This document shows positions 4,050 to 25,802 of a stretch of DNA of 64,000 bases, one piece after another. The notes below the pieces were generated by a model. It made no database searches, was not told the origin of the DNA, and saw only the letters and a list, made by a program, of their open reading frames with translations. Source of the stretch: Deltaproteobacteria bacterium (GTDB lineage: Bacteria > Desulfobacterota > Binatia > UBA9968 > JAJDTQ01); contig JAPPNE010000048.1 in the NCBI GenBank assembly GCA_028818775.1, positions 81,786 to 145,785 of the forward strand, read 5' to 3'. Within the stretch, counting starts at the first letter, position 1. Each line of letters opens with the position of its first letter. The translations under genes were made by a program, and so were the position numbers.

Positions 4050-4078
4050 GATGGCGTGGTGCGGCGGCGCGTGGACGG

Positions 4079-5167
4079 TCAATCGATGCCGTAGAGCCGG
4101 GCAGCGTTGCCTCCCAGGACCGCCTCCTTCTGCGCCTGGGTGAGATCGTCCCGCTCGATCAGTTCGTCGATCTCATGCCGGCACGACGCAGCATCGAAGA
4201 CCTCGTGAGGAAAATCGCTGGCGAACAGGAACGGCTCGGCGCCGGCCTGCTGCACGGCGAAGGCCAGCCCGGCGTCGTCGCAGTCGAAACCGACGAAGAT
4301 GCGCCCCTCCCGGACGTGGCGTTTGAAATGCTCGCTGGCCTTCTCTCCCGGCGCGGGACCGGGCACCGGGTTGCCCGCCAGGTCGATCTGCAGGTGCCCC
4401 TCGTTGTAGGAACGGTCGAGCCTGTCCATGAAGAACGGCACCCAGGTGGCGCCTCCTTCGAGAAACGCCACCCGCAAACCCGGAAAGCGCTCGAAGATCC
4501 CGTGGCTCAGCATCGCCGCCGCCTGCACCATGATCCCGAAGGGATGGCCCAGAGCATGCACCGGGTAGTAGACGCTGAAACCGTCGAGGCCCAGATGATG
4601 GTGCGCGCCGCCGTGCACGGTGAGGCAGCAGCCGAGCTTTTCCGCCTCCTCGTAGATGGGCCAGTAAGCCTTGGCGCCCAGGTGGCCCTTGATCCCCTCG
4701 CCGTTGGACGGCAGCATGGCGCCGACCATGCCGAGCTCCCGGACGCAGCGCCGCAGCTCCTCCACCGCGGCCTCCTCGTCCTGGATCGGGATGAGGCCGA
4801 CGCCCTTGAGGCGCGGCGTGACGCTGGTGAAACGATCGTGCAGCCAGTTGTTGTAGGCGCGGCAGGCCGCGATCGCCCACTCCACCGAGACGATGCGGCC
4901 GAACCCCAGACCGGCGCTGGGGTAGAGCACGCTCCAGGCGATGCCGGTCTCGTCGATGAACGCCAGCCACTCCTCCGGGCCGGGAGCGGTCTTCATGCTG
5001 CCGCCGACGTACTTGGGCACGCGGTTCTTCATCAGGTAGCGGAAGTGAAGGTGGTCGAAGACCGGAAACATCTGGCTGAACTGGTTCCCCTTGGGCATGT
5101 ACCTGGCGATCTCATCGCCGAAGAAATAGTCGTTGACGTGGCCGTCCGCGTCGTTGATGGTCGGCAT
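4079..5167 (-). CDS. Amidohydrolase 2 (ACMSD-like) family hydrolase or decarboxylase
   Basis: This 362-residue TIM-barrel protein belongs to the family of ACMSD, gamma-resorcylate decarboxylase and 5-carboxyvanillate decarboxylase. Metal ligands are visible in order: DADGH near the N-terminus (Asp/x/His in place of the usual HxH), His in LTVHGGAHHH, His in HALGHPFG and Asp in FASDFPHEV. Nonoxidative decarboxylation or hydrolysis of an aromatic acid or its ring-cleavage product is likely; the substrate is unknown. ATG 5167 is preferred over an upstream in-frame start at 5221 because AAGGAG stands seven bases before it and DxDGH then falls at the proper place. It is related to the tandem pair at 25803 and 26975. 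Confidence 0.85.
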   Translation of the reverse strand: MPTINDADGHVNDYFFGDEIARYMPKGNQFSQMFPVFDHLHFRYLMKNRVPKYVGGSMKTAPGPEEWLAFIDETGIAWSVLYPSAGLGFGRIVSVEWAIAACRAYNNWLHDRFTSVTPRLKGVGLIPIQDEEAAVEELRRCVRELGMVGAMLPSNGEGIKGHLGAKAYWPIYEEAEKLGCCLTVHGGAHHHLGLDGFSVYYPVHALGHPFGIMVQAAAMLSHGIFERFPGLRVAFLEGGATWVPFFMDRLDRSYNEGHLQIDLAGNPVPGPAPGEKASEHFKRHVREGRIFVGFDCDDAGLAFAVQQAGAEPFLFASDFPHEVFDAASCRHEIDELIERDDLTQAQKEAVLGGNAARLYGID

Positions 5168-5195: not shown

Positions 5196-6782
5196 TTATC
5201 GCAGCCCCTGGACGCTGTCAATCAGCCGGTAGCGCCCCTCGGCGTCCTGGTCGATCTCGCCGGCCGCGTGAAGCTCGCCCATGGCGCGCGCCACGGTCTG
5301 GAAATCCGCCTCGGTAATCTCGTGCGCGATGCCGCTGAAGTACCGGGGGCCGGCCGCGAGAAGCTCGCGTATCCGCGCGGCCGCGCCTTCAACGCCGGCT
5401 CCGCCGGAAACTTCCACGCCCTCCGAAACAGCCTCGGCGGTTTCCGCCTCGCCGAGGTAGGCGGCGAGGTGCAGCTCATCCGCGTACGGGTAGGTGATGC
5501 GCTGGTAGCGCGCCTTGGGGACGTCGTCGGGAATCGTGGCATCGATGCCGCACTTGGCGGTGGTGGGGATGCCGTCCGACAGCGGCAGGCTCGGGTCCAG
5601 GGGCTTGGACCGGGCATCCGAGAGGATGGTGATGTCGCGGTCGGCCTGCACCCGGGTGGCCATGGCCCATTCCACCTCCATGGCGTCGAAGACGTCGATG
5701 TCGTCGTCGACGATCACCACGTGCTTGAGGTCCGCCACCGACAGCGACGCCATGATGGCGTTCTGGGGATCACCCGGCTGTTTCCGGATCGCGACGATGG
5801 CGTGCCAGTGGCAGCAGCCTCCCGGGGTGACGTTGACAGCGGTCACGGTCACTCCGGCCGCGTCCAGGACCCGCTTGAGCGCCGCCTGGAAGCCGTGCTC
5901 CTTGATCCAGATGTTCTCCCAGGGCATGTGCAGCGCGTAGTAGATCGCGTCCTCGCGGCGCGAGACGGCCTTCACGCGCACGTGAGGGTTGTAGTGCACG
6001 TCGCCCATGAGGCGCGTCATCTCGCCGAAGCGGCCTTCCTGACGGGTCCATCCCGTGGGCAGGATCTCCGCCTCGAGCACGATCTCCGCGTCCGCCAGGC
6101 ACGGCGCATCCACGGTCCGGCAGGCGCCGAGGCGCACCGGCCGCCCCATCATGCCGCCGGCGATGCCCAGCTCGTTCACGCCCAGCGGGGCCTTGTAGAG
6201 CGACGCCATGAGCTCCACGGGATGGGTGCCGATGTTTATGGAGATGGGCAGCGGCGCGTTGGCCGCCAGCGCCTTCTCCGCCAGCTTGCGCAGGTTGTTC
6301 GGCGTGACGATGTCGATGCCGGTGAGGTTCCTTTCCTTCACCTGAAAGCGGTAGGTGCCGGCGTTCAGGCCGTATTCCGGGTCGCGGGCGAGCGTGACGC
6401 CGGCCGTAATGGTGGGACCGCCGTCGAACTCGGAAAAGACCGGCACCGGGAGGCTGAAAAGGTCCACGTCGGCCCCTTCCCGGAACCAACCCCGCACGCC
6501 TTCGTCGTCTACCTCCACCGGATCGACGGGGTGATCGAGGGCGCGGCTGAGCCGTTGGTCCAGCTGCGCGTAGTCGCAGCTCGCGGACAGCGCGATCCGC
6601 GTCCTGTCGTTCAACAGCCCGGAGACGACGGGCAGTTCGTAGCCGCGCACCCGGTGGAACAGCAGCGCGGTGGAGGACTGATCCACCAGCGCCGCGATAT
6701 GCCGCACGTCCACGGGCTTGCGGACATCGACGAGCTGGCCGGCGTTCCGTAGGTCATCCAGGAAGGTCCGGAAGGTCGCCAT
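5196..6782 (-). CDS. UbiD family decarboxylase (paralog 1)
   Basis: This 528-residue protein is a prenylated-FMN-dependent UbiD-type decarboxylase. The Arg-containing motif NAGTYRFQ and the Glu-Glu motif EGRFGE, equivalent to R173 and E277/E282 of Fdc1, are present; the usual Pro of EGPFGE is Arg here. VVIVDDDIDVFD and the following Ala-Thr-Arg segment are typical of the C-terminal half. UbiDs reversibly (de)carboxylate aromatic, heteroaromatic or acrylic acids. It starts four bases after the stop of the UbiD at 6787, so the two are co-transcribed; tandem UbiDs may form a hetero-oligomer or serve two substrates. No UbiX flavin prenyltransferase is in the window. Confidence 0.9.
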   Translation of the reverse strand: MATFRTFLDDLRNAGQLVDVRKPVDVRHIAALVDQSSTALLFHRVRGYELPVVSGLLNDRTRIALSASCDYAQLDQRLSRALDHPVDPVEVDDEGVRGWFREGADVDLFSLPVPVFSEFDGGPTITAGVTLARDPEYGLNAGTYRFQVKERNLTGIDIVTPNNLRKLAEKALAANAPLPISINIGTHPVELMASLYKAPLGVNELGIAGGMMGRPVRLGACRTVDAPCLADAEIVLEAEILPTGWTRQEGRFGEMTRLMGDVHYNPHVRVKAVSRREDAIYYALHMPWENIWIKEHGFQAALKRVLDAAGVTVTAVNVTPGGCCHWHAIVAIRKQPGDPQNAIMASLSVADLKHVVIVDDDIDVFDAMEVEWAMATRVQADRDITILSDARSKPLDPSLPLSDGIPTTAKCGIDATIPDDVPKARYQRITYPYADELHLAAYLGEAETAEAVSEGVEVSGGAGVEGAAARIRELLAAGPRYFSGIAHEITEADFQTVARAMGELHAAGEIDQDAEGRYRLIDSVQGLR

Positions 6783-6786
6783 GCGG

Positions 6787-8154
6787 CTATCCGGTCAGCT
6801 TGCCCATGAGCCGCCGCGCCCGCTCCACCGCGCCCGGCTCGATGGACAGGGTCGAGGCGAACTCGCCCAGGGGCTTGGTGGCGTCGATGCCCATCTTCGC
6901 GGTGATGGCATCGGTGGCCGACGGATCCAGCAGCGTGCCCATGGCCTCGTCGACGATGAAGACGTCCCGGTTGGCCTGCATCCGGGTGGCGATGGCCCAC
7001 AGCACCTGCTCCTCGTCGAAGATGTCGACGTCGTCGTCCACCACCACCACCAGCTTGACGTAGTGGTCGGCTCCCAGCACGCTAAAGATGGCCTGCTTGC
7101 CCTGCCCCTCGGCGGTCTTTCGCATGGAGACGTAGCAGTGGAAGCTGCCGATGCCCGAGCGCACCGGCACGTGCACCGCCTTGAGGTTGGGGATGGTCTT
7201 ACCCAGCACGTTGGTGAACTCCACCTCCCGGGGCATGGACAGGCAGCGGCAGTGCTCCATGCTGTCGCCGCCGTTGATGTCCTGGTAGACGGCGCCGTTG
7301 CGGTAGTGCAGCGCCGTGGCCTCGAAGACGTTCTCGGTGCTGCGGCTCGAGGCGTAACCGGTGAACTCGCCGAACGGCCCCTCCTTCTCGCGCACGTCCT
7401 TGAGAATCCGTCCCTCGATGACGATCTCCGACCACCGCGGCACGTCGACGTCCACGGTGGTGCAGCGCGCGAGCTCAAGGGGCTCTTGCAGCAGCCCGCC
7501 CTGGAGCGCGAATTTCTCGGTTCCGGCCGGCGGCAGCGTCAGCGCACCCAGAGAGACCAGCGGGTGCACGCCGATGCACACCGCCGCTTCCAGGGATTCG
7601 CCCTTCTCCTCCGACCGCCGGAAGTACTCGAACATGCGGCGCCGGGAGTGGAGGCTGACTCCCAGCTTGCGCGGCCCCTTGAGCTGCATCCGGTGGAAGC
7701 CCACGGTGCTCATGCCCGACTGCGGGTCCCGCGCCACCACCAGCCCCGCGGTCACGTAGGGGCCGCCGTCCTGCTCGAAATGGGTCAGGATCGGAAGCCG
7801 CCCCAGGTCCACGGAGTCGTCCAGTAGACTGTTCTCCTGAAAGGGGGCGTCCTCCATCACCTTGGGCGGCACCGGCTGCTGGATCCGTTCCTTGAACTCG
7901 TGTACCAGCCGTTCCCCGGACGTGCCGAAAGCCCAGGCCAGCCGCGGACGGTGCGCCAGCACGTTGGCCGCCATGGTGAAATCGCTCCCGGCAATGTCCC
8001 GGAACATCACCGCCGGGCAGGACGGCAACCGTTCGGCCTCCATGACCAGCGCGGTGGCCTCGAATTCCCTGGACACCGGCTCCTTGACCTCGAGGAACTG
8101 CTCAGGGCACTCCTTTTTCAATCGCTTCAAGAAACTCTGCAGGTCCTGTGACAC
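6787..8154 (-). CDS. UbiD family decarboxylase (paralog 2)
   Basis: This 455-residue UbiD has the canonical KEGPFGEFTGYASS motif (catalytic Glu pair) and VGFHRMQLKG, where the prFMN-site Arg sits. VVVVDDDVDIFDEEQ is diagnostic of the C-terminal domain. The start is GTG at 8154 with AAGGAG six bases upstream. It is the first gene of the UbiD pair and is preceded by a palindromic repeat of family B, so a promoter may lie in the 158-base gap from the PLP gene at 8313. The substrate is probably an aromatic or heteroaromatic carboxylic acid. Confidence 0.9.
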   Translation of the reverse strand: MSQDLQSFLKRLKKECPEQFLEVKEPVSREFEATALVMEAERLPSCPAVMFRDIAGSDFTMAANVLAHRPRLAWAFGTSGERLVHEFKERIQQPVPPKVMEDAPFQENSLLDDSVDLGRLPILTHFEQDGGPYVTAGLVVARDPQSGMSTVGFHRMQLKGPRKLGVSLHSRRRMFEYFRRSEEKGESLEAAVCIGVHPLVSLGALTLPPAGTEKFALQGGLLQEPLELARCTTVDVDVPRWSEIVIEGRILKDVREKEGPFGEFTGYASSRSTENVFEATALHYRNGAVYQDINGGDSMEHCRCLSMPREVEFTNVLGKTIPNLKAVHVPVRSGIGSFHCYVSMRKTAEGQGKQAIFSVLGADHYVKLVVVVDDDVDIFDEEQVLWAIATRMQANRDVFIVDEAMGTLLDPSATDAITAKMGIDATKPLGEFASTLSIEPGAVERARRLMGKLTG

Positions 8155-8312: not shown

Positions 8313-9548
8313 TCACGGTCTACCAATTCTCTCCCGCACCGCATCAACGGAGCAGTCCAAAGGCTCCGGCGCCTCGACGGCCCGCAGCGCGGCATCCACG
8401 TCCTTGAGGCCGTGGCCCGTGGACAGGACGACGACGCGCTCCGCGGACGAGACGTCGCCGCGCTCCACGAGCTTCACCAGCGCGGCGACCGCGGCCGCGG
8501 CGGCGGGCTCGGCGAACAGTCCGGCGGTCCCGCCCAAAAGCGGCATCGCTTCCAGGATCTCTCCGTCCGACACCGTTACCGCGATCCCGCCGGAGGCGCG
8601 GAGGTCCTGCACCGCCATGGCCCCGTTGCGCGGCAGCGCCACGCTGATGCTGTCGGCCAGGGTGTCCTCGGTCACGGGTCTGATGGTGCCGTCGCCGTCG
8701 AAGGCCTGCTTGATGGCCTGGGAGCCCTCGGCCTGGGCCGCCACCAGCCGCGGCAGGCGCGGAATCCATCCCAGCCGGTGAAGATCCGTGAACCCCTTCC
8801 AGACGCCGCTCAGGATACAGCCGTCCCCGGTGGCGACGATGACGGTGTCGGGCGGCTCCCAGCCGAGCTGCTCGGTGATCTCCAGCGCCACCGTCTTCTT
8901 ACCCTCCACGGTATAGGGGTTGTAGCCGGTGTTGCGGTTGTACCACCCGAAGCGGTCGGCCGCCTCGACACAGAGGCTGAAGGCTTCGGAATAGCTGCCG
9001 CGAACGGAAAGAACGTCGGCGCCGAAGATCAGGAGTTGCGCCACCTTGGCCCGAGGTGCCGTCTCGGGCACGAAGATGTGACAGGGCAGTCCCAGGGCCG
9101 CGGCAAGGCACGCCAGCGACGCCCCCGCGTTGCCGGTGGAGGCGGCGGCGAACTCCCGCCGGCCCAACTCCTGCCCCTTGAGCAGCACCACGGAGCTGGC
9201 GCGGTCCTTGAGGGAAGCGGAGGGATTCGCCGTGTCGTCCTTCACCCACAGCCGTTCCAGACCCAGGGCCTTCCGCAGTCCCGGCACGGGATAGAGAGGC
9301 GTGCCGCCCACCGTCAAGGGGAACTCGACCCGGGCGGCCGCAAGTGGCAACAGCGGCAGATAGCGCCAGTGATCGAGGAACGGCGCGGCGGCCAAGTCCG
9401 AGAGAGTCACTGACGCCTTGATGCGATCGTAGTCGTAGGAAACCCGCAAGGTCCCCAACTCGCCGCACTTGGGGCAACTGTATCGGGTGGGACCTTCCCG
9501 GTAGGCGGCACCGCACAGAACGCAGGTCAGGCTTTCGGGAAGAGGCAT
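8313..9548 (-). CDS. Threonine synthase-like PLP enzyme with N-terminal zinc ribbon
   Basis: This 411-residue fold-type II PLP enzyme starts with a zinc-ribbon pair (CVLCGAAY, then YSCPKCGELG), as in many threonine synthases. The PLP lysine is in NPSASLKDRAS; a phosphate-binding Gly/Ser loop follows (ASTGNAGASLA). Threonine synthase converts O-phosphohomoserine to threonine. Because it sits in a catabolic block beside another PLP lyase, it may instead be a specialised beta-replacement or elimination enzyme; sequence alone does not decide. The ATG at 9548 has only a weak ribosome site. No homoserine kinase or dehydrogenase gene is nearby, which slightly favours a non-housekeeping role. Confidence 0.83.
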   Translation of the reverse strand: MPLPESLTCVLCGAAYREGPTRYSCPKCGELGTLRVSYDYDRIKASVTLSDLAAAPFLDHWRYLPLLPLAAARVEFPLTVGGTPLYPVPGLRKALGLERLWVKDDTANPSASLKDRASSVVLLKGQELGRREFAAASTGNAGASLACLAAALGLPCHIFVPETAPRAKVAQLLIFGADVLSVRGSYSEAFSLCVEAADRFGWYNRNTGYNPYTVEGKKTVALEITEQLGWEPPDTVIVATGDGCILSGVWKGFTDLHRLGWIPRLPRLVAAQAEGSQAIKQAFDGDGTIRPVTEDTLADSISVALPRNGAMAVQDLRASGGIAVTVSDGEILEAMPLLGGTAGLFAEPAAAAAVAALVKLVERGDVSSAERVVVLSTGHGLKDVDAALRAVEAPEPLDCSVDAVRERIGRP

Positions 9549-9560
9549 CTTCAGCAGGGA

Positions 9561-9653
9561 GTCGGGTTACGCCTTCGGCTAACCCGACCTACCTCCGAGT
9601 ACGGCGCTGTAACCTGCCGACCCGTAGGTCGGATTAGCGAAGCGTAATCCGAC
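9561..9653. repeat. Palindromic repeat, family C (imperfect inverted pair)
   Basis: GTCGGGTTACGCCTTCGGCT followed by AACCCGACCTAC at 9561-9592 is matched on the other strand by GTAGGTCGGATTAGCGAAGC followed by GTAATCCGAC at 9624-9653. Each arm is itself a hairpin around a short loop. The unit resembles the REP-type GTAGGTCGG elements common in proteobacteria. It lies between the threonine-synthase-like and cysteine-synthase-like genes and occurs once in this window. Confidence 0.85.
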
Positions 9654-9678
9654 ACTTTCATGTCAATGACGAATTATC

Positions 9679-10713
9679 CTACCGTACGATGTGCAGGTTC
9701 CGGCGCGCCAGGTTGGCGCGGTCTTCCTCGCGGATGGGATGCTCGCGGTCGGGAATATCCACGCCCTCGTCCTTGCCGAACAGCGGCGTGGAGAAGTAGC
9801 GCATGCCGGTGTCGTTGATCATGGTCACGATCATCTTCGTGGACGGGAGCGCCGCCGACAGCTTGTTGGCCGCGGCCACGTTGCAGCCGGACGAGATGCC
9901 GCACAGGACGCCCTCTTCCCGGGCCAGGCGCCGGGCCATGGCGATGGAGTCCTCGGAGGAGACCGTCACCACGCCGTCCACGAAGTCCAGGTCCAGGTTC
10001 TCCGGGATGAAGCCGTCGCCGATGCCCTCGATGGCGTGAGGGCCCCAGGTGCCGCCGGACAGGATCGGACACTCCTCCGGCTCCACGGCGTAGATCTTCG
10101 CTTCCGGGTTCTGCTCCTTCAGGAACTTGCCGACCCCGGACACCGTGCCGCCGCTGCCCTGGGAAGCCACGAACACGTCCACTTGGCCGGCGGTCTGGTG
10201 CCAGATCTCCGGCCCGGTGGTTTCGTAGTGGGCGGCGATGTTGTCCCGGTTGGAGAACTGGCCGGGCTCCCAGTAGCGGTCCGGCTCTGCGCGCTTCAAC
10301 TCCTCCACCTTCTCCAAACACAGGTCCACGTCGCTCTCCGCCCCGGGCGTCAGCACCAGCTCCGCGCCGTAGGCGCGCATGGAGGCCTTGCGCTCCTCGC
10401 TCATACCCTCGGGCATCACCACCACCACCGGGTAGCCGCACACCGCGCCGATCATGGAGGTGGCGATGCCGGTGCTGCCGGTGGAGGCCTCCAGGATGGT
10501 CATGCCGGGCTTGAGGTCGCCGCGTTCCTCCGCGCTCCGCACCATGCGCCGCAGGATGCGGTCCTTGAGGCTCGACGACGGGTTCATGAACTCCAGCTTG
10601 CCGCACAGGGTCTGCGGCCCCGCCGCCACCTTGCGCAACCGCAGCAGCGGCGTCAGTCCCGCCGCCTCGGTGATGTCCTCCGCGATCCGTCCCCGGGATG
10701 CCCAGTCCGTCAT
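9679..10713 (-). CDS. Cysteine synthase/cystathionine beta-synthase family PLP enzyme
   Basis: This 344-residue fold-type II PLP protein has the lysine motif NPSSSLKDRIL and the substrate loop EASTGSTGIATS, as in CysK, CysM and CBS. The phosphate loop SQGSGGTVSG and SSGCN near the C-terminus complete the site. CBS regulatory domains are absent. It may make cysteine or another beta-substituted alanine. I chose ATG 10713 because AAGGA lies seven bases upstream; an in-frame start at 10731 has none. It is followed by repeat family C and preceded by repeat family A, so it may be an independent unit within the leftward block. A second PLP gene (8313) follows. Confidence 0.87.
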   Translation of the reverse strand: MTDWASRGRIAEDITEAAGLTPLLRLRKVAAGPQTLCGKLEFMNPSSSLKDRILRRMVRSAEERGDLKPGMTILEASTGSTGIATSMIGAVCGYPVVVVMPEGMSEERKASMRAYGAELVLTPGAESDVDLCLEKVEELKRAEPDRYWEPGQFSNRDNIAAHYETTGPEIWHQTAGQVDVFVASQGSGGTVSGVGKFLKEQNPEAKIYAVEPEECPILSGGTWGPHAIEGIGDGFIPENLDLDFVDGVVTVSSEDSIAMARRLAREEGVLCGISSGCNVAAANKLSAALPSTKMIVTMINDTGMRYFSTPLFGKDEGVDIPDREHPIREEDRANLARRNLHIVR

Positions 10714-10753
10714 GGCTGTCCTTTCCGACACATTTCCCGATAATTCCGAGCTT

Positions 10754-10858
10754 GCGTCCTTCGACTTCGCTCGGTGGCCCTCGCTACGCTCAGGACGAGC
10801 GGTTGTGACAGCCTTTCTCCGTTCGTCCTGAGCGTAGCGAAGCGAAGTCGAAGGACGC
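10754..10858. repeat. Palindromic repeat, family A (inverted pair, one arm interrupted)
   Basis: The right arm at 10819-10858 is a near-perfect family A unit. The left arm at 10754-10802 is its inverted copy but carries nine extra bases (CGGTGGCCC) in the middle, replacing the usual TTCGCTTCGC continuity, and has GAGCGG instead of GAACGG at its end. The element sits between the DUF6282 gene and the cysteine-synthase-like gene. Confidence 0.9.
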
Positions 10859-10878
10859 CATCCGACTAGAGACTAGGG

Positions 10879-11751
10879 TCAGATGCCGAGCATCGCCCGC
10901 GGGTTGTCGACGATGAGCTTCTCCACGTTGCGCGGCGAGACTCCCTTCTCGTACAGGCCCTGGGCGTACAGCCACAGGGCCTCGGGCGGCAGCGGGTTGT
11001 GGGACTGGCCGGTGTCGCTCATGACCACGCAGTTGTCGAAGCCCATGGAGTCCATGATGCCCTTGGTGAACTCCAGGTTCACGTACGCCCACATGGGCGA
11101 GATGGTGCAATAGCCGAACTCGCCGAGGGCGCCGTAGCGCATCATCTGCTTGAGGAAGTCGAGGTTCATGCCCGCGGGCACGCGGAAATAGGGATGGGTG
11201 ATGAGTATCTTCTTGACGCCGCGCTCGTGGGCCGCCTTCACGAGCAGTTCGATCTCCCCGAGTGAAAGGTGCGCGGTGCCGAGGATGGCGTCGTACTTGG
11301 CGATGAGCTCCAGCACCACCAGGGCTTCCTCCACCACCTTGCCGTCCTTGACCGCGGAGATGGGCTCGCCCCACACGAAGTCCGCGCCGCTGGTCTGGGT
11401 GTCGTAGCTGCCGCGGGCGCCATGGACGTCGACGTGATGCGCCGCGTCGATGGTGGGCATCCAGATCTCCTTGGCGCCGAGCCGCAGCCCCACCTCGGCC
11501 GCGGCCGGATTGATGCCGCCGACGAACTGGTTCATCACGACGCCGCCGAACACCTTGATGTCCGGGAACTCCTGCTGGATGAGATAGGCGCGGCTTACCG
11601 TGCTCTCGTGATGACACTTCAGCACAATGGCCCCCATGCCCGCGTCCGAGGCCGCCTTGACGGCCTCACGGTCGTCCACCCGCCGCTGGAACACGCAGGG
11701 ATACGAGTGCACGTGCAAGTCCACGGCGCCGTCGAGCTTCATGAATTCCAT
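10879..11751 (-). CDS. DUF6282 family putative metal-dependent hydrolase
   Basis: This 290-residue protein begins MEFMKLDGAVDLHVHSYPC, an HxH metal-site motif of an amidohydrolase-like TIM barrel, and continues with GMGAIVLKCHHESTVSRA and IWMPTIDAAHHVDVH, which I associate with the DUF6282 family. The function of that family is not established as far as I know; it is often found in catabolic clusters, which suggests hydrolysis of an amide, lactone or imide intermediate. ATG 11751 was chosen because GGAGG is six bases upstream; a TTG at 11766 in the same frame has no such site. The gene is 11 bases downstream of the maleate-isomerase-like gene and is surely co-transcribed with it. Confidence 0.75.
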   Translation of the reverse strand: MEFMKLDGAVDLHVHSYPCVFQRRVDDREAVKAASDAGMGAIVLKCHHESTVSRAYLIQQEFPDIKVFGGVVMNQFVGGINPAAAEVGLRLGAKEIWMPTIDAAHHVDVHGARGSYDTQTSGADFVWGEPISAVKDGKVVEEALVVLELIAKYDAILGTAHLSLGEIELLVKAAHERGVKKILITHPYFRVPAGMNLDFLKQMMRYGALGEFGYCTISPMWAYVNLEFTKGIMDSMGFDNCVVMSDTGQSHNPLPPEALWLYAQGLYEKGVSPRNVEKLIVDNPRAMLGI

Positions 11752-11762
11752 GTCATTCCTCC

Positions 11763-12452
11763 TCAACCCATGTCCACCAGCTCCAGGCCCAGTTCGCGGC
11801 CCACGGCCTCGAGGGCGGCCTGGTTGCTGGTGACGATGGGCATGTCATACGCCGCCTTGAGTTGCGGCAGCGTCGCCACCGCCTGGAAGTTGGTGCAGGA
11901 GATGAACAGTGCGTCCACGGCCGGGGTCGCGCCGAGCTTCTCCCGGGCGAAGGCCAGGATCTCCGGCGGCTCCACCAGCGCCAAGTTGAAGTTGACGCTG
12001 ATGCCCATGCCGTGGATCGACGCCACCTCGATGCCGTCGTCTTCCACGCTGGCCTTGATGCGCACGTTGAGGTCCTCGATGTAGGGCGTGATCACCGCCA
12101 CCCGCCGCACCTCCAGCCCCATGAGCTTGCGCCGCACCGACTCGATGACGCTGACGGTGGGCTTGCCGGTGACCTCCGAGATCCGGCGGCACAGATCGGC
12201 GTCGTAATCGTTGCCCCGGAGCGCCCCGGCGCTGGTGCAGCCGAAGACCACCACGTCCGGCTTGGCGGTGGCCACGTCGCCGGCGGTGGGCAGGCAGTGA
12301 TCGTCGAGCATCTCTTCCTCGCCCTTCACGGTGGTGGCCTCCATGTACATCCGTCCCGGGTGCACCGTGGCCGATGCCGGCAGGTGGCGGTAGAAGTCCA
12401 CCTCCATGACCGTGTTCGACGATGGGATGAGCAATCCTACCCGTTGCGCCAA
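11763..12452 (-). CDS. Maleate cis-trans isomerase/Asp-Glu racemase family protein
   Basis: This 229-residue protein opens AQRVGLLIPSSNTVMEVDFY, typical of maleate isomerases and arylmalonate decarboxylases. The two catalytic cysteines of the superfamily are visible in VVVFGCTSAGA and ALFISCTNFQAV. Maleate isomerase converts maleate to fumarate and is the last step (NicE) of aerobic nicotinate degradation. The start is TTG 12452 with AAGGAGA about eight bases upstream; the longer open frame to 13013 only shadows the Mo-subunit gene. Its place directly downstream of a Mo-hydroxylase supports a pyridine-ring or related catabolic pathway, an inference from context. Confidence 0.85.
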   Translation of the reverse strand: MAQRVGLLIPSSNTVMEVDFYRHLPASATVHPGRMYMEATTVKGEEEMLDDHCLPTAGDVATAKPDVVVFGCTSAGALRGNDYDADLCRRISEVTGKPTVSVIESVRRKLMGLEVRRVAVITPYIEDLNVRIKASVEDDGIEVASIHGMGISVNFNLALVEPPEILAFAREKLGATPAVDALFISCTNFQAVATLPQLKAAYDMPIVTSNQAALEAVGRELGLELVDMG

Positions 12453-12484
12453 TGTGCCGTCTCCTTGTCCCGCCTGTCCGCCTG

Positions 12485-13498
12485 TCAGTCTTCCTCGAAC
12501 TCGCCCCGGGCCCGGGCCTCCTGGATGGCGAAGAAGACCCGCTCGGGCGTGATGGGGGTTTCGGTGATGCGGATGCCGATGGCGTCGTGGATGGCGTTCA
12601 GGATCGCCGGCGTGGTGGGGATGGTGGCCGGCTCGGCCACGCCCTTGGCGCCGAACGGCCCCCGGGGATCGGGCACCTCCACGATCTCGCACTCGATGTC
12701 GGGAACGTCCATGGCGGTGGGCACGAGGTAGAATGCCAGCGAGTTCGTGCGCGGGATGCCGCCCTCCAGGATGTGCTGCTCGTAGAGGCCGTAGCCCAGC
12801 CCCATGGTGGCGCCGCCTTCGATCTGCCCTTCCACCGCCACCGGGTTGATGGCCTTGCCCGCGTCGGTGGCCGACACCAGCTTGGTGAGGCGCACGCGCC
12901 CGGTCTCGGTGTCCACCTCCACCTCGGCCAGTTGGGTCGCCCAGCCGTAGGTGGCATAGGCGTCCCCCTGGGAGGTCTCCGGGTCCACGTCCGCGGTGGT
13001 GTTGTCGTGCCACCCCCAGGCGGCCGCACGCCGGCCGTGGAAGTGGAGTTGGTGCGCCACCTTGCCCACGGACACCATCTCGCTACCCGATTCGATCTCG
13101 CATACCTGCCCGCGCCGCACCACGAGGTTCTCCTTCGGGCACTCCAGCATGCGCGACGCCATGTCGAGGATCTGCTCCCGCAGCTCCGCCGCGGCGTTCT
13201 GCACCGCCACCCCCTGGACGAAGGTGGCGCGGCTGCCCGAGGTGGGACCGGCGTCGGGTGTGCTGCCGGTGTCCGCCGCCACCACGCGGATCTGGTCGGG
13301 CTCGATGCCCAGCTCTTCCGCGGCCACCTGGGTGACCACGGTCATGACCCCCTGGCCCATGTCGCAGGCGCCCGAGTACACCGTGGTGGTGCCGTCCTCG
13401 GCCATTTCGATCTCGGCCGAGCCGATGTCGGCCCGGCTGAAACCGTAGCCGATGCCGTAGTACATGGAGCCGATGCCCAAGCCTTTTCTGATTGCCAT
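12485..13498 (-). CDS. Mo-hydroxylase molybdopterin subunit, C-terminal half (NdhM-like)
   Basis: This 337-residue protein corresponds to the second MoCo-binding domain of xanthine dehydrogenase-type enzymes: it begins IRKGLGIGSMYYGIGYG, has the CDMGQGVMTVVTQ loop and ends with GAKGVAEPA, carrying the catalytic Glu. The first half is the preceding gene at 13519. The 20 bases between them hold stop codons in both reading frames, so the break is not one sequencing slip. Two Mo-subunit genes of these sizes, in the order F-S-L-M, are known from nicotinate dehydrogenase of Eubacterium barkeri. The protein would sit in a cytoplasmic heterotetramer hydroxylating an N-heterocycle or similar compound. 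ATG 13498 has no clear ribosome site, so coupling to the upstream gene is likely. Confidence 0.87.
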   Translation of the reverse strand: MAIRKGLGIGSMYYGIGYGFSRADIGSAEIEMAEDGTTTVYSGACDMGQGVMTVVTQVAAEELGIEPDQIRVVAADTGSTPDAGPTSGSRATFVQGVAVQNAAAELREQILDMASRMLECPKENLVVRRGQVCEIESGSEMVSVGKVAHQLHFHGRRAAAWGWHDNTTADVDPETSQGDAYATYGWATQLAEVEVDTETGRVRLTKLVSATDAGKAINPVAVEGQIEGGATMGLGYGLYEQHILEGGIPRTNSLAFYLVPTAMDVPDIECEIVEVPDPRGPFGAKGVAEPATIPTTPAILNAIHDAIGIRITETPITPERVFFAIQEARARGEFEED

Positions 13499-13518
13499 GG
13501 CCGTTCAACCCATCCGTC

Positions 13519-14844
13519 TCACGACGCGGCCTCGGGCCGGTTGAAGCGCAGGTCGTGCGCGCCCATGTAGTCCTTGATCCGCTGCAGCGTCGCCTCGATG
13601 CCGCAACCCTCGTTCATCACCTGTCCGGTGGAGGAGGCCAGGCCCGGCTTGAGGCAGTTCTTCAAGCGGAACTCCAGCGGCGACATGCCCAGCTTGTGGG
13701 CCAACTGATCCATCTGGGACTCGTGAGCCACCGCCGCCTGCATCACCCCGAAGCCGCGCATGGCCCCGGAGGTGAGGTTGTTGGTGTAGAGCGTGTAGGT
13801 GTCCACGCGGATGTTGGGCACGTCGTAGGGGCCGGTGGCGTGGATGCCCGCCTTCTTGATGACGTACGCGCCCAGGGAAACTCCCGCGCCGGTGTCGCCG
13901 TAGATGTCGGCGTCGAGGAAGGTGAGCCGTCCGTCGGCGTCGGCGCCGGTGCGGAAGTTCATGGCCATGGGGTGGCGCTTGGTGTTGGCGACGAGCGACT
14001 CCTCGCGGGTGTAGACCAGGCGCACCGGGCGGCGCGTCTTGAGCGCCAGCAGCCCCACGTGGATCTCGGCGGTGATGTCGTCCTTGCGCCCGAAGCCGCC
14101 GCCGATGGGCGCCTGGACCACGCGCACCTTGTTCATGGGCAGCCCCAGCGCGGGCGCGATCTGCCGGCGGTCGCGGTACGGGTACTGGGTCCCCACCAGG
14201 ATGTTGAGCACGCCCGACGGATCGACGTAGGCCAGTCCCGCTTCGGGCTCCATCGGGACATGGTCCATGCGGTGCGTGTGGTAGGCGTTCTCCACGATCA
14301 CGGCGGACTCCCGGACGCCCTTGTCCAGGTCGCCCTTGCGCACCGTCGTGTGCTGGAAGACGTTGCCGCCTTCGTGGATCTTGGGCGCATCGGGGTCCAG
14401 CGCGTCCGCGTAGGTGAGGATCGGCCGCAGGTGCTCTATGTGCACCTTGATCTTCGACACCGCCTCTTCCGCCGCCTCCTCGTCCTCGGCCGCCACCAGC
14501 GCCACGGCGTCCCCCACCGAGCGCACCTTTTCTTCCGCCAGCGCGCACTGGTCCAGCACCGCCAGTCCGAAGCGGTTGCTGCCCGGCACGTCCTTGGAGG
14601 TGAGCACGGCATGGACCCCGGGAACCCGCGCGGCCTCCTCGGTCTCGATGCGCTTGATCACCGCGTGCGGCGTGTCCGCCCACAGGATCTTGCCGTGGAG
14701 CATGCCTGGCACCACCATGTCGCCCACGTACTCGGTGGCGCCAAGGGCCTTTTCGAGGGCGTCGGGCTTGGTGACGTTCTTGCCGATCCAGTGATACGCG
14801 TCCCGGGTCTCTTCCGCGGTCTCCGTGGAGGGGTCTTCGCTCAT
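13519..14844 (-). CDS. Mo-hydroxylase molybdopterin subunit, N-terminal half (NdhL-like)
   Basis: This 441-residue protein contains the a/b hammerhead domain (about residues 15-150) and the first MoCo-binding domain. QAPIGGGFGRKDDITAE is the classic pterin-binding loop, and SGAMRGFGVMQAAVAHE the loop facing the Mo centre. It stops (TGA) where single-chain homologs, such as the one at 42694, run on into the second MoCo domain. It overlaps the iron-sulfur gene by ATGA at 14841-14844. With the FAD (15335), Fe-S (14841) and C-half (12485) genes it forms a complete four-gene hydroxylase. Maturation would need MoCo genes and an XdhC-like chaperone, none of which is in view. The substrate is unknown. 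Confidence 0.9.
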   Translation of the reverse strand: MSEDPSTETAEETRDAYHWIGKNVTKPDALEKALGATEYVGDMVVPGMLHGKILWADTPHAVIKRIETEEAARVPGVHAVLTSKDVPGSNRFGLAVLDQCALAEEKVRSVGDAVALVAAEDEEAAEEAVSKIKVHIEHLRPILTYADALDPDAPKIHEGGNVFQHTTVRKGDLDKGVRESAVIVENAYHTHRMDHVPMEPEAGLAYVDPSGVLNILVGTQYPYRDRRQIAPALGLPMNKVRVVQAPIGGGFGRKDDITAEIHVGLLALKTRRPVRLVYTREESLVANTKRHPMAMNFRTGADADGRLTFLDADIYGDTGAGVSLGAYVIKKAGIHATGPYDVPNIRVDTYTLYTNNLTSGAMRGFGVMQAAVAHESQMDQLAHKLGMSPLEFRLKNCLKPGLASSTGQVMNEGCGIEATLQRIKDYMGAHDLRFNRPEAAS

Positions 14845-15338
14845 GACGCAGCACCTCCGTTCCCTGACTGTTCCTTCATTTCGAGGGCCGCCGCCCGCAC
14901 GGCCTTGACGATCTTGCCGTATCCCGTGCAGCGGCAAATGTTGCCGGAGATGGCGAAACGGATCTCCTCGTCGGTGGGGTCCGGGTTGTCCCGCAGCAAG
15001 GCATACGCGCTCATGATCATGCCGGGGGTGCAGTAGCCGCACTGAACGCCGCCCTGCTCCACCATCTGGCGTTGGATCGGGTGCGGAACGCCTTCCTCGG
15101 CCAGCGCCTCGACGGTGACGATGTCCCGGTCCGCCGCGTCGGGCACGAGCACCAGGCAGGAAACCACCGGCCGGCCGTCCAGCAGCACCGTGCACGATCC
15201 GCACTCGGCCTCGTTGCAGCCCTTCTTGCTGCCGGTGAGCCGAAGGTTTTCGCGCAGCACGTCCAGCAGAGACTCGTGGGCGCCGGCTTCCGCTTCCAGG
15301 TCCCGGCCGTTCACCCGGAAAACATACCGCTGTTTCAT
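14841..15338 (-). CDS. Mo-hydroxylase [2Fe-2S] subunit (NdhS/CoxS-like)
   Basis: This 165-residue protein holds both [2Fe-2S] clusters of the family: the plant-ferredoxin type in GCNEAECGSCTVLLDG plus a later Cys (VVSCLV), and the all-helical type in QCGYCTPGMIMSA and NICRCTGYGKI. It passes electrons from the Mo centre to FAD. ATG 15338 overlaps the stop of the FAD gene by four bases (ATGA at 15335-15338), and its own stop overlaps the next start in the same way, indicating translational coupling and equal stoichiometry. The length is normal (150-170). Confidence 0.95.
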   Translation of the reverse strand: MKQRYVFRVNGRDLEAEAGAHESLLDVLRENLRLTGSKKGCNEAECGSCTVLLDGRPVVSCLVLVPDAADRDIVTVEALAEEGVPHPIQRQMVEQGGVQCGYCTPGMIMSAYALLRDNPDPTDEEIRFAISGNICRCTGYGKIVKAVRAAALEMKEQSGNGGAAS

Positions 15339-16228
15339 GGCGTCTCCGTCCCGCCGTCGCCGCGCGCCCTCTCCACCGCCCGGCGCAGCACCCGCCCGAC
15401 GAGGATGCGCACCAACTCCTTTCGGTACGCCGCCGTGCCGCGGATGTCGTCGATGGGGTTGCATTCCTCCATGGCGGCGTTACCGGCCTGTTGCAACAGC
15501 TCCGGCGTGGGCTCCTTCTCGCGTACCAGTTCCTCCGCTCGCACCGCGCGGATGGGCGTGGGCGCCACCGCCCCCAGTGCGATGCGCACCGCCTCCACCC
15601 GCTGGCCGTCCGTGTCCAGGGTCACCGCGGCCGCCGCACTGGCGATGGCGATGTCCATGGCCGAGCGCGGCGTGAAGCGCTCGAAGGCGTCACCGCTATG
15701 CGGCGCCGGCTCGGGCACGTCCACCGACAGCAGCAGCCCCGCGTTCCCCAGCACCGAGGCCCCCGGTCCCGCGAAGAAGTCCTCCACCGGCACGCTCTGC
15801 TCGGCGCCATCATCCGTCCGGTAGCTTGCCATCGCATCCAGCACCATCAGCGGCGGCGCCGTGTCGGCCGACGGCGAGGCGTTGCACAGGTTGCCGCCCA
15901 CGCTCGCGATGTTTCTCAACTGCAACGATCCCACCACTCGAATCGCCTCGAACAGCGAGGGATAGCCGCCCGCCACGGCCGCCGCGGTCTCCAGGTCGCG
16001 CATGGGCGTGCACGCGCCGATGTGCAGACCGCCGTCGCGCGCGCAACACCAGTCGGCGAGACCGGGTATGCGCTTGAGGTTCACCAGCCCCTGGCATTGC
16101 GCCGCGCGGCGGCGCAACTGTATGACGATATCGGTGCCTCCGGCAAGGGGCTTGCGCGCCCCCCCTCCCTCGCGCAGGAGGGCGCCCGCTTCGTCGAGCG
16201 AGGTCGGCTCGAAGTAGTCGAAACGCAT
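15335..16228 (-). CDS. Mo-hydroxylase FAD-binding subunit (NdhF/CoxM-like)
   Basis: This 297-residue protein is the medium FAD subunit of the xanthine dehydrogenase/CO dehydrogenase family. It begins MRFDYFEPTSLDEAGALL and carries FAD motifs KPLAGGTDIVIQ and IASVGGNLCNASPSADT. The C-terminal CO-dehydrogenase flavoprotein domain follows. It receives electrons from the [2Fe-2S] subunit and passes them to NAD or another acceptor. ATG 16228 lies two bases after the stop of the LLM flavoenzyme gene, so both are in one transcript. I rejected the longer frame to 17071, which only shadows that gene. Confidence 0.94.
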   Translation of the reverse strand: MRFDYFEPTSLDEAGALLREGGGARKPLAGGTDIVIQLRRRAAQCQGLVNLKRIPGLADWCCARDGGLHIGACTPMRDLETAAAVAGGYPSLFEAIRVVGSLQLRNIASVGGNLCNASPSADTAPPLMVLDAMASYRTDDGAEQSVPVEDFFAGPGASVLGNAGLLLSVDVPEPAPHSGDAFERFTPRSAMDIAIASAAAAVTLDTDGQRVEAVRIALGAVAPTPIRAVRAEELVREKEPTPELLQQAGNAAMEECNPIDDIRGTAAYRKELVRILVGRVLRRAVERARGDGGTETP

Positions 16229-16230
16229 GG

Positions 16231-17187
16231 TCAGGTCCCCGGGCGATCGGTCAGCTTGGGGATCACCTCCGAGGCGATGATCTCCACCTGCTCCGGCTGG
16301 TACCGGTACGGGATCAGGATGATCCGGTGCACGCCCGCGTCCACGTGGGCCTGGAGCTGCTCCACGCATTCGTCCACGGTGCCGCGGATGGCGTGCTCGA
16401 TGGTCGAGTCGCTCCACTTGGCGATGTCCCACTCGGTGGAGAGCCAGTGGCGCATGGGCGCGTCGGCTTCCTCGCGGGGCGGCCCGACATAGATGGCCAA
16501 CTGGTTGGTGGCCGTGAGCTTCGAGGGATCGCGGCCGGCCTTCTCGGCGGCGTCCAGTACCTTGGCCCAGCTCTTGGTGAAACCCTCGGGCGTGTAGAAG
16601 TAGGTCAGCCAGCCGTCGCCCTTGCGCCCGGCGCGCCGCAGCACGCGGTCGATGTAGCCGCCGATCAGGATGGGCGGATGGGGCTTCTGCACCGGCTTGG
16701 GCAGGAGCACGGCCGAGCGCAGGTTCAACTCGTCCACCTGCTCGGTGACGAAATCCTCGGTCCACAGCCGCACCAGCAGGTCGAGGTTGCGCTCGAAGAT
16801 ACGGCCGCGGTCCTTGAAGGAGATGCCCACCGCGTCGAACTCGCGCGCGTACCAGCCGGAGGCGGCCCCCAGGAGCAGGCGCCCGTTGGAGATCTGGTCC
16901 AGGCTGCCCAACACCTTGGCCGCCACCACCGGGTTGCGCAGCGGCAGCACCATCACGCCGGTGCCCAGGCGAACGCGCTTGGTGCGCACCGCGATGGCCG
17001 TAAGGATGGTCAGGGAGTCCAGCACCGGGAAGCTCGGGTCCACGCCCAGCAGGATATGGTCCCAGGCCCACAGCGACTCGAAGCCCAGTTCCTCGGCGCG
17101 CTCCGCGTAGCGCAGCAACCCCTCCACGTCCGGGGTCTCGCCCGGACCGACGAAATTTCGAATGGCGACGCCAAACTGTACCGGCAT
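16231..17187 (-). CDS. LLM class flavin-dependent (F420 or FMN) oxidoreductase
   Basis: This 318-residue protein has the bacterial-luciferase-like TIM barrel: an N-terminal strand with QFGVAIRNFVGPGETPD, the segment RAEELGFESLWAWDHIL, then RLGTGVMVLPLRNPVVAAK and RLLLGAASGWYAREFDAVG. LLM enzymes act as FMN-dependent monooxygenases or F420-dependent dehydrogenases; sequence does not separate the two here. In this operon it could hydroxylate or open the ring produced by the Mo-hydroxylase (inference). AGGAG lies about ten bases before ATG 17187. It sits between the CoA-transferase and Mo-hydroxylase genes, with 12 and 2 base gaps. Confidence 0.87.
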   Translation of the reverse strand: MPVQFGVAIRNFVGPGETPDVEGLLRYAERAEELGFESLWAWDHILLGVDPSFPVLDSLTILTAIAVRTKRVRLGTGVMVLPLRNPVVAAKVLGSLDQISNGRLLLGAASGWYAREFDAVGISFKDRGRIFERNLDLLVRLWTEDFVTEQVDELNLRSAVLLPKPVQKPHPPILIGGYIDRVLRRAGRKGDGWLTYFYTPEGFTKSWAKVLDAAEKAGRDPSKLTATNQLAIYVGPPREEADAPMRHWLSTEWDIAKWSDSTIEHAIRGTVDECVEQLQAHVDAGVHRIILIPYRYQPEQVEIIASEVIPKLTDRPGT

Positions 17188-17199
17188 GCGTTGTTTCTC

Positions 17200-17961
17200 C
17201 TACCCGAGGAAATTCCTCTCGGGGTCGATGCTGCGAAGGGTCTCCAGTTCCTCGGCGCTGGGCGGCTCGGTCACCGGGACGTGCTCGGGCGCCGGCAGCT
17301 CGAAACCTGTATTGTCCCGCACCTGCTGGACGGTGACCCCGGGGTGGAGGCTCTCCAGTTGCAGGCGCCGGCTCTGCGGATCGAACGCCAGGGTGCCCAG
17401 GTGGGTGACGATGCGGCTCACGGTGCCGAAGACGAGCCCGGCGTCACGGCGCGAGTCGCCGCCCGACAGAAAGCCCGGACTGGTCACGAAGTCCACCTTC
17501 GGTACGAAGCGGCGCCGCTCGTGCATGGTCACCACCATGACCCGGCGGCACAACGAGATGATATCGTTGGCGCCGCCGCTGCCGGGCAGGCGCACCTTGG
17601 GACGCTCGTAGCCGCCGATGACGCTGGAGTTGAGGTTGCCGTAGGGGTCGATCTGCGCGCCGCCCACGAAACCCACGTCGAGGAACCCCCGCTGCGCGAA
17701 CAGGAACGTGTCGGTGATGCCCGGCAGCATCTGCGCCCGCGGCGCGGTGCGCATCTCGTTGGTGGAGTACGGCAGCCGTCCGGGCACCATGCGCGGCCCC
17801 ATGCTGCCGCCTTCCACCACGATGACGAGCTGCGGCGCACGCGTCTTCTGCGCCAGCACCGCGGCCACCAGGGGCACGCCCACTCCGGCGAACACGGAGG
17901 TGACGCCGGCGAGCTGGCGCGCCGCGACCACGGCCAGAAGCTCGGTGTCCGAGTAGCTCAT
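17200..17961 (-). CDS. CoA-transferase beta subunit (glutaconate CoA-transferase B-like)
   Basis: This 253-residue protein matches the B subunit of family I CoA-transferases. VIVVEGGSMGPR contains the glutamate expected to form the acyl-CoA thioester, and GFVGGAQIDPYGNLNSS and LPGSGGANDIISLCRR are typical. It would transfer CoA from a donor such as acetyl- or succinyl-CoA to a dicarboxylic or oxo acid product of the pathway. ATG 17961 overlaps the stop of the A subunit (ATGA, 17958-17961). The substrate is not readable from sequence. Confidence 0.9.
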   Translation of the reverse strand: MSYSDTELLAVVAARQLAGVTSVFAGVGVPLVAAVLAQKTRAPQLVIVVEGGSMGPRMVPGRLPYSTNEMRTAPRAQMLPGITDTFLFAQRGFLDVGFVGGAQIDPYGNLNSSVIGGYERPKVRLPGSGGANDIISLCRRVMVVTMHERRRFVPKVDFVTSPGFLSGGDSRRDAGLVFGTVSRIVTHLGTLAFDPQSRRLQLESLHPGVTVQQVRDNTGFELPAPEHVPVTEPPSAEELETLRSIDPERNFLG

Positions 17962-18914
17962 CGCGGCCCCAGAAGCTCCTCGGCGCAGCGCCGTTGGCGT
18001 TCCAGCGCCTCTTCGCCGAAGAGCGCCAGATACTGCTCGTGGCCGGAAACGCCGTGGACGTAGCGCTCCAGGTAGTCGTTGACGGCGCCGGTGCCGCGCG
18101 CCTTGACGGCGTCGGTATAGGCCTCGAAGTGGGCGAAGTCGGCCTCGTAGAGGCCGTAGCATTCGTGCGGGAAGGAACCGTAGGCCATCTCCACCACCGC
18201 GTCCACCACGAGCCCCGGGATCACCGTGCGGTCCGGCTGGCGGCGGATCTCCTCCTCGTCGACGATCTCCTCGGCCGTGACGATGACGGTGGCGGCGGCC
18301 TTGGCGATATCCGTGTCCATGTGCGGATAGCCGTCGATCTGGCAGTTGCCGAAGCGGTCGGCGCGGTGCACGTGGAGCAACGCCACCTCCGGGAACAGGG
18401 CCGGCACCAGGCACAAGGTCTCCCCGGTGAACGGGCACTCCATGGTCTTGGTATCGGTCACGCCCATGAGGTCCGAGCCCAGCATGGTGAGGGTGGGCAG
18501 GAACGGCACCCCCATGGCGCCGGCGCGGTAGCGCAGCCCGAGCCCCAGATGGCTCCATTCCTCGAAGCGGATGCGTCCGCCTTCCACCTCCTCGCGCAGC
18601 TTGAGGGACAGGCCCCAAGGTAGCGCGATGTCGAACCAACTGGTCATGAGGCCGTCCACGGCCTTGGACGCCATGAACAGCTCGCCCTCGTAACACATGA
18701 GGTTGCGCGACAGGGTGAGGCCGCGCCGTCCCTGGCGGAGGACCTCCATGAGCGCCGCCAGCGGGCTGCGCGAGAAGAGGCAGCCGCCGATGGCGATATG
18801 GTCGCCGTCGCGGACCTTTCGGACCGCCTCTGTCAGGGTGGTGCGCTTGTCGCCCGTGGACTGGGGCTTCGCCTCGAGCCGCCTCCGGGCTTCCACGAAA
18901 TCAGCCGACTTCAT
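17958..18914 (-). CDS. CoA-transferase alpha subunit (glutaconate CoA-transferase A-like)
   Basis: This 318-residue protein is the A subunit: VRDGDHIAIGGCLFSRSPLA is the CoA-binding glycine loop, and VALLHVHRADRFGNCQIDGY is a strongly conserved segment. It pairs with the B subunit encoded by the overlapping downstream gene. It appears to be the first gene of the operon that runs through the LLM, Mo-hydroxylase, maleate-isomerase-like and DUF6282 genes, so its promoter should lie in 18915-19124. GAGGAGG stands about twelve bases upstream of ATG 18914, a rather long spacing. Confidence 0.9.
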   Translation of the reverse strand: MKSADFVEARRRLEAKPQSTGDKRTTLTEAVRKVRDGDHIAIGGCLFSRSPLAALMEVLRQGRRGLTLSRNLMCYEGELFMASKAVDGLMTSWFDIALPWGLSLKLREEVEGGRIRFEEWSHLGLGLRYRAGAMGVPFLPTLTMLGSDLMGVTDTKTMECPFTGETLCLVPALFPEVALLHVHRADRFGNCQIDGYPHMDTDIAKAAATVIVTAEEIVDEEEIRRQPDRTVIPGLVVDAVVEMAYGSFPHECYGLYEADFAHFEAYTDAVKARGTGAVNDYLERYVHGVSGHEQYLALFGEEALERQRRCAEELLGPR

Positions 18915-25718: not shown

Positions 25719-25802
25719 CACGCTGCCGCCGATCGGATAATCCCGAAGGACGGTCTTCCGCCATCCGCGACCGCTCCATTCCAGTACCAGGGAGGGAACC
25801 CA

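Follow-up and report, generated by a model that had tools for sequence, protein, structure and literature searches.

A conserved gene cluster around a split molybdenum hydroxylase in Binatia, probably for catabolism of a heteroaromatic acid

The window analyzed here is a stretch of 64,000 nucleotides (67% GC) from the 4.1 Mb metagenome-assembled genome of an uncultured Binatia bacterium. It contains four adjacent genes for a molybdenum (Mo) hydroxylase whose Mo-binding subunit is encoded in two parts, an N-terminal half (MoN) and a C-terminal half (MoC). An earlier interpretation made from the letters alone (the sequence-only reading) had placed the borders of the system at 11763-16228. We find a larger operon: the cluster genes, all on the minus strand, belong to a same-strand run that begins near 18.9 kb and ends near 3.1 kb, and the unit comprises 11 to 15 genes, with several adjacent pairs overlapping by 4 bp or lying 2-30 bp apart. 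The luciferase-like monooxygenase (LLM) and CoA-transferase genes that the sequence-only reading had set ahead of the hydroxylase, and the DUF6282 gene after an isomerase-type gene, are found where it had put them. The genes are as follows.

17958-18914, minus strand: CoA-transferase subunit A, GctA type (PDB 1POI_A 143 bits, AibA 106, IpdA 64); ortholog in all cluster genomes.
17200-17961, minus strand: CoA-transferase subunit B, GctB type (1POI_B 150 bits); a Glu aligns with the AibB residue mutated in 5N00-5N03.
16231-17187, minus strand: LLM flavoenzyme of the F420-dependent TIGR03619 family (198.1 bits, cut-off 166.9).
15335-16228, minus strand: Mo-hydroxylase FAD subunit, 297 aa (Pfam FAD_binding_5 and CO_deh_flav_C).
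14841-15338, minus strand: Mo-hydroxylase 2x[2Fe-2S] subunit, 165 aa, ATG at 15338; similar to cluster orthologs and other Mo-hydroxylases.
13519-14844, minus strand: MoN, NdhL-like N-half of the Mo subunit, 441 aa (3HRD_A 381 bits; Ald_Xan_dh_C and MoCoBD_1; motifs TQ, GGGFGRK, AMRGFG).
12485-13498, minus strand: MoC, NdhM-like C-half, 337 aa (3HRD_B 238 bits; MoCoBD_2; motifs GQG, GPFGAKGVAE; catalytic Glu289).
11763-12452, minus strand: maleate-isomerase/arylmalonate-decarboxylase-type enzyme, 229 aa, with Cys72 and Cys186 (Pfam Amdase 89 bits; 2XEC alignment; predicted model).
10879-11751, minus strand: DUF6282 protein, possible metal-dependent hydrolase (PF19799 221 bits; conserved HxH, HH, THP and D).
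9679-10731, minus strand: cysteine-synthase-like pyridoxal phosphate (PLP) enzyme (PALP; CysK 356 bits).
8313-9548, minus strand: threonine-synthase-like PLP enzyme (PALP; thrC 179 bits).
6787-8154, minus strand: UbiD2, UbiD decarboxylase of His type (HmfF 6H6V 297 bits, next family 169; R-E-E kept; 296 H / 304 R / 331 S).
5196-6782, minus strand: UbiD1, UbiD decarboxylase of Asn type (HmfF 6H6V 284 bits, next 171; R-E-E kept; 296 N / 304 F / 331 H).
4079-5167, minus strand: Amidohydrolase_2 family enzyme (PF04909), start codon uncertain; seen in clusters of the genus but not in that of the other family.
3057-4082, minus strand: ornithine-cyclodeaminase (OCD)-like dehydrogenase, start codon uncertain (best NCBIfam 154 bits, below the family cut-off).

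The division of the Mo subunit is a stable property of the enzyme. The FAD and Fe-S genes, and the Fe-S and MoN genes, overlap by 4 bp; MoN ends at a true TGA stop, and MoC begins with a fresh ATG after a spacing of 20 bp. Since Pfam finds Ald_Xan_dh_C and MoCoBD_1 in MoN only and MoCoBD_2 in MoC only, the standard large subunit is cut cleanly at a domain boundary. Separate MoN and MoC genes are present throughout the genus (nine genomes of nine), in a genome of a second Binatia family (G033) and in a Dehalococcoidia genome (L030), where about 1 kb lies between them. Both halves are under strong purifying selection (dN/dS 0.11-0.17), and the ortholog alignment shows that the Mo-site motifs TQ, GGGFGRK, AMRGFG and GQG, together with the catalytic Glu in GPFGAKGVAE, are retained across them. 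The same split in ten further genomes and the dN/dS values rule out a sequencing frameshift or a pseudogene as its cause. The gene calls, the domains and these genomes thus bear out the four-subunit enzyme of the sequence-only reading, with its Mo subunit of 441 + 337 aa. Having an FAD subunit, a 2x[2Fe-2S] subunit and Mo domains with the catalytic Glu and Mo-site motifs, as expected of the xanthine-oxidase family, the four genes most likely encode one active Mo-hydroxylase of that family (FAD, Fe-S, Mo-N, Mo-C). By analogy with NdhFSLM, the two halves would jointly rebuild the large subunit around the molybdopterin cofactor.

NdhFSLM is the nicotinate dehydrogenase of Eubacterium barkeri (3HRD), an enzyme with a labile selenido ligand that hydroxylates nicotinate. 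In E. barkeri, ndhF, S, L and M are four coupled genes (PMC10331938). The likeness in layout and size noted earlier is evident: both enzymes have four subunits encoded in the order F-S-L-M, halves of similar size (NdhL/M 425/330 aa) and an identical break point between MoCoBD_1 and MoCoBD_2. The best PDB match of MoN is 3HRD_A (381 bits, runner-up 209), and that of MoC is 3HRD_B (238 bits, runner-up 169). However, many single-chain Mo-hydroxylases of 760-800 aa from the same phylum equal or exceed the cluster enzyme in similarity to NdhL, with up to 410 bits compared with about 350. We built trees from 64-row and 30-row sets of Mo-hydroxylases. In both, the cluster enzyme groups only with another split enzyme (L055 in genome G265; support 100/100, 51-52% identity), whereas NdhLM pairs with a different split enzyme (L056 in G224; 93/90) beside single-chain enzymes. 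Forcing the cluster enzyme, L055 and NdhLM into one clade costs 17.6 log units (approximately unbiased (AU) test under one model, p-AU 0.034), and adding L056 to that clade costs 15.3 log units (p-AU 0.020); both are modest rejections. The halves do not form an exclusive clade with NdhLM, and orthology with it is disfavored by both tree and test. There are also local differences. The residue following GGGFG(G/S)K is Asp in all cluster orthologs examined, Leu in NdhL and its single-chain kin, and Glu in Se-dependent xanthine dehydrogenase (XDH); in the alignment it falls at what we take to be Glu802 of bovine XDH. An Asp facing the substrate, rather than the Leu of the NdhL group, argues for a different substrate. 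The GSMYYGIGYG loop is one residue longer in the cluster enzyme, and the neighboring genes are wholly different. Based on sequence comparison, the enzyme resembles NdhFSLM in layout, but descent from or membership in NdhLM is not supported.

Because the split enzymes fall apart in the trees, with NdhLM beside single-chain enzymes, the Mo subunit was probably divided repeatedly, each time at this same domain boundary, or else split enzymes re-fused in between. The Mo subunit is also divided in L056, in L057 (G369) and on plasmid pS26_248 of Phaeobacter piscinae, all placed elsewhere in the tree. The sister enzyme L055 has a different setting (8472-16162): its genes run MoN-MoC-FAD-FeS, with an ArgE/DapE deacylase, a PreA-like protein, a CysK-like PLP enzyme and a branched-chain ABC importer. 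The Phaeobacter plasmid locus (L031) encodes an FeS-MoN fusion and a separate MoC, and it adjoins genes for a tripartite tricarboxylate transporter, a thiamine pyrophosphate enzyme, an aldehyde dehydrogenase and an IlvD/Edd dehydratase. On a Sulfitobacter sp. S190 plasmid (L062), a Mo-hydroxylase stands just before an annotated 6-hydroxynicotinate reductase, together with a UPF0280 gene and two genes of the 'amino acid synthesis' family, a set that may possibly constitute a reductive N-heteroaromatic pathway in an alphaproteobacterium.

The surroundings of the hydroxylase are conserved with it. In tblastn maps the genus shares the order CoAA-CoAB-LLM-FAD-FeS-MoN-MoC-isomerase-DUF6282-CysK-ThrS-UbiD2-UbiD1 as far as the contigs reach, with some extra DNA before ThrS in three of them and only a fragment of UbiD1 in G001. 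In G033, the genes from FAD through UbiD1 keep this order at 55-82% identity, and the CoAA-CoAB-LLM trio lies on another contig (71-74% identity). The two contigs share an exact 58-bp in-frame overlap inside an OCD-like gene, which places the trio at the opposite end of the same cluster; the OCD-like homolog that ends the G033 cluster is 41% identical over the short piece seen. The flanking genes are MiaA/MutL in the genus, and CarB- and RecG-like genes (by eye) plus GrdB/GrdE-like genes in G033. Because they differ, we consider the cluster to be conserved as a unit. The GrdB-like (PF07355) and GrdE-like (PF09338) genes, for components of glycine/sarcosine/betaine reductase, stand directly upstream of the G033 FAD gene (L029, 4171-7844). 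In the Dehalococcoidia genome the gene order is kept in part: the GctAB-LLM trio adjoins FAD-FeS-MoN-MoC in a different arrangement. Conservation of the whole gene set across families carries the strongest weight in what follows; single co-occurrences count for little.

The partner genes point to recognizable chemistry. In the CoA-transferase, the Glu of a VVEGG motif in the GctB-type subunit aligns with VESG of 1POI_B and with the mutated AibB residue, and by sequence the pair is of the glutaconate CoA-transferase (GctAB) type with its catalytic Glu. An IpdAB-type ring-opening hydrolase was rejected, as its match is far weaker. The LLM scores above the curated TIGR03619 cut-off, and the host genome carries F420 CofD. 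It is 54% identical to the LLM of an F420 cluster on Sinorhizobium meliloti pSymA, compared with 36% to the best paralog in its own genome. That uncharacterized cluster (L113, CP130049.1, 44-68 kb) has counterparts of the trio, GctA (48%), GctB (55%) and LLM (54%), arranged as here, along with cofC/D/H, npdG (F420 reductase), an ArgE/DapE deacylase, PntAB, a Mo-hydroxylase and a branched-chain ABC importer; its genes were picked out in a genome-wide association study of nodule competitiveness (PMC8407117). Unlike the Binatia enzyme, the Mo-hydroxylase there is single-chain and only 30% identical, and UbiD, isomerase and DUF6282 genes are absent.

Both UbiD proteins are nearest to the structure 6H6V, which is PtHmfF (PMC8988006), and keep the catalytic Arg-Glu-Glu, with His (UbiD2) or Asn (UbiD1) at position 296; a UbiX gene is present in the genome. 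In HmfF this His is reported to set furan specificity, and the matching residue is Asn in a pyrrole-2-carboxylate decarboxylase (PMC7976604). Genome G015, from the same taxonomic order, has in one run GctAB, one UbiD of each type (His and Asn), a single-chain three-gene Mo-hydroxylase and a CoA-ligase-like gene (by eye); GctAB, the UbiD pair and a Mo-hydroxylase therefore recur together with unrelated Mo enzymes. On four contigs of the Binatia order (L125-L127 and L129) GctAB adjoins UbiD genes, and the His-type/Asn-type pairing in L125-L127 suggests a heteromeric UbiD decarboxylase.

The isomerase-type gene starts at a TTG preceded by an AAGGAGA box. Within the Asp/Glu racemase superfamily, its product falls in the arylmalonate-decarboxylase/maleate-isomerase branch (PF17645, Amdase, 89 bits); the only NCBIfam matches, arylmalonate decarboxylase (92 bits) and EutA (83 bits), are far under their cut-offs. 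N13, C72, Y124, N154 and C186, invariant in nine orthologs, align with what we take to be the 2XEC maleate-isomerase active site (N14, C76, Y133, N163, C194). The predicted model (pLDDT 85) superimposes on Pseudomonas putida maleate isomerase with a TM score of 0.89 and on arylmalonate decarboxylase (2VLB) with 0.83. Both catalytic cysteines are shared with NicE-type maleate cis-trans isomerases (2XEC/4FQ7), whereas the CTSxxxxRG motif resembles arylmalonate decarboxylase; identity to either is only 22-26%. Wild-type arylmalonate decarboxylase has Gly at the Cys72 position (3IXM is the Gly74Cys mutant), and we reject that identity; the general branch alone is shared. Sequence and model favor a cis-trans isomerase or a racemase over a decarboxylase, with maleate as a putative substrate. 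The family residues and fold thus uphold the maleate-isomerase type proposed earlier, and a racemase or decarboxylase would also fit. In Shinella and Mesorhizobium, homologs with 43% identity likewise adjoin Mo-hydroxylases, which there have three subunits. In the DUF6282 protein, H13, H15, H47, H48, H186 and D246 are invariant in the ortholog alignment; its predicted structure is poor (pLDDT 47), and a sequence search of the PDB returned no match. Elsewhere in the window, on the plus strand at 24258-26915, lie a second amidohydrolase_2-type gene and a DRE-TIM aldolase-like gene (by eye), which also occur in L017.

Gene content and order, their conservation, the intact catalytic residues and the presence of UbiX and F420 CofD are observed directly. 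Together they make it probable, though by no means certain, that this is a conserved catabolic cluster in which the split Mo-hydroxylase performs one step on a heteroaromatic carboxylic acid or its CoA thioester. We infer the substrate class and the order of steps. The prFMN (prenylated FMN)-dependent His-type/Asn-type UbiD pair would remove or add a ring carboxylate, and the GctAB-type CoA-transferase would activate a carboxylate. The split Mo enzyme could then hydroxylate the ring carbon beside the heteroatom (N or O) of the acid or thioester, and the F420-dependent LLM may reduce or open the hydroxylated ring. DUF6282, the amidohydrolase or both would hydrolyze the ring-opened amide or lactone, the maleate-isomerase-type enzyme would isomerize the resulting cis-ene-dioate, and the PLP and OCD-like enzymes may handle nitrogen.

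Several observations weigh against this interpretation. No cluster gene fixes the substrate, and two neighboring pathways could be encoded side by side in the cluster. A DUF6282 relative was not found in the Dehalococcoidia genome at the threshold used; the lower part of the pathway is therefore not obligatory. The residues that bind 2,5-furandicarboxylic acid in HmfF, presumably His296-Arg304-Arg331, are not kept as a triad at 296/304/331 in either UbiD2 (H/R/S) or UbiD1 (N/F/H). Finally, given about 37 Mo-hydroxylases in 4.1 Mb, we estimate that roughly 18% of genes would have one of them within 10 kb, so that the G015 and S. meliloti examples carry only moderate weight.

Among the rival explanations, we considered a furan- or pyrrole-carboxylate route like hmf, in which UbiD would decarboxylate a ring dicarboxylate, and CoA activation would be followed by Mo-hydroxylation of furoyl- or pyrroyl-CoA and hydrolytic ring opening. 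Both UbiDs are closest to HmfF, the hmf cluster pairs HmfF with the Mo-type furoyl-CoA oxidase HmfABC (PMC12064950), and the pair has one residue of each kind, His as in furan and Asn as in pyrrole enzymes (PMC7976604). The hmf pathway likewise joins a UbiD decarboxylase to a Mo-hydroxylase and CoA chemistry. The present cluster differs in having two UbiDs with altered residues, a CoA-transferase in place of a ligase and a split Mo subunit, and in its additional LLM, isomerase, DUF6282 and PLP genes. HmfF residues 304 and 331 are not retained together, the cluster genes include neither an HmfD-type ligase nor an HmfE-type hydrolase, and the presence of PLP and OCD-like enzymes hints at nitrogen. 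We regard this route as unlikely.

Catabolism of a purine, pyrimidine or hydantoin-type ring, with the split enzyme resembling xanthine dehydrogenase, appears more doubtful still. The Asp at the bovine XDH Glu802 position and the racemase-superfamily neighbor are compatible with it, as are the ArgE/DapE deacylase, the PreA-like protein (a dihydropyrimidine dehydrogenase type) and the CysK-like enzyme beside the sister L055. However, that sister cluster has few other genes in common with ours, no hydantoinase, allantoinase or ureidase family was recognized among the cluster genes, and UbiD and GctAB do not fit such a route.

The sequence-only reading had suggested an undescribed pathway for an N-heteroaromatic acid that combines an anaerobic-type hydroxylase with an aerobic-type lower route. 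The first part is in keeping with the conservation of the cluster and with a literature search that found no publication describing it. The second part, in which the enzyme would be a nicotinate dehydrogenase making 6-hydroxynicotinate and the hybrid route would end with maleate converted to fumarate, fares poorly, and we give it only a slim chance. In its favor, the top PDB matches of the two halves are NdhL and NdhM, which share the break point and the gene order with them, and the isomerase retains the maleate-isomerase residues. Against it stand the AU tests of a joint clade and the Asp in place of the Leu of NdhL and its single-chain kin. Pfam and NCBIfam identify no 6-hydroxynicotinate reductase and no NicC, NicX, NicD or NicF in a search confined to the cluster genes and not extended to the whole genome. 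Because none of these could be assigned in the cluster, the hybrid hangs on one isomerase. The UbiD pair and GctAB fit neither nicotinate pathway; together with the F420-type LLM, they indicate a different heteroaromatic acid or a route through a CoA thioester. That a broad-range Mo-hydroxylase merely sits beside unrelated operons in a paralog-rich genome (about 37 MoCoBD_2 loci, one more of them in the window near 44017-44853, and 22 LLM matches) is very improbable, as eleven genes at 41-82% identity stay together in two families against different chromosomal backgrounds, many with gaps of 2-30 bp or overlaps.

A more specific version of the heteroaromatic-acid reading can be offered tentatively, as a proposal that may well prove wrong. 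The cluster may encode an undescribed pathway in which GctAB activation, paired prFMN-dependent UbiD enzymes and the split Mo-hydroxylase are combined with a ring reduction that draws on F420H2. Such a route would parallel the reductive nicotinate pathway of E. barkeri but use F420, and it would be conserved in Binatia and horizontally shared with Dehalococcoidia.

The cluster around the split Mo-hydroxylase is thus real, conserved and undescribed, and a nicotinate substrate is possible but not favored. Mo-hydroxylases and LLM enzymes without known substrates number in the dozens in Binatia and SAR202-type Dehalococcoidia. Here, one such Mo-hydroxylase is tied to defined partners of known chemistry, in an order conserved across families and partly across phyla, which makes its function testable. 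GctAB-LLM and the His/Asn UbiD pair provide markers by which related pathways may be found, among them the one that a culturable Sinorhizobium carries on a plasmid.

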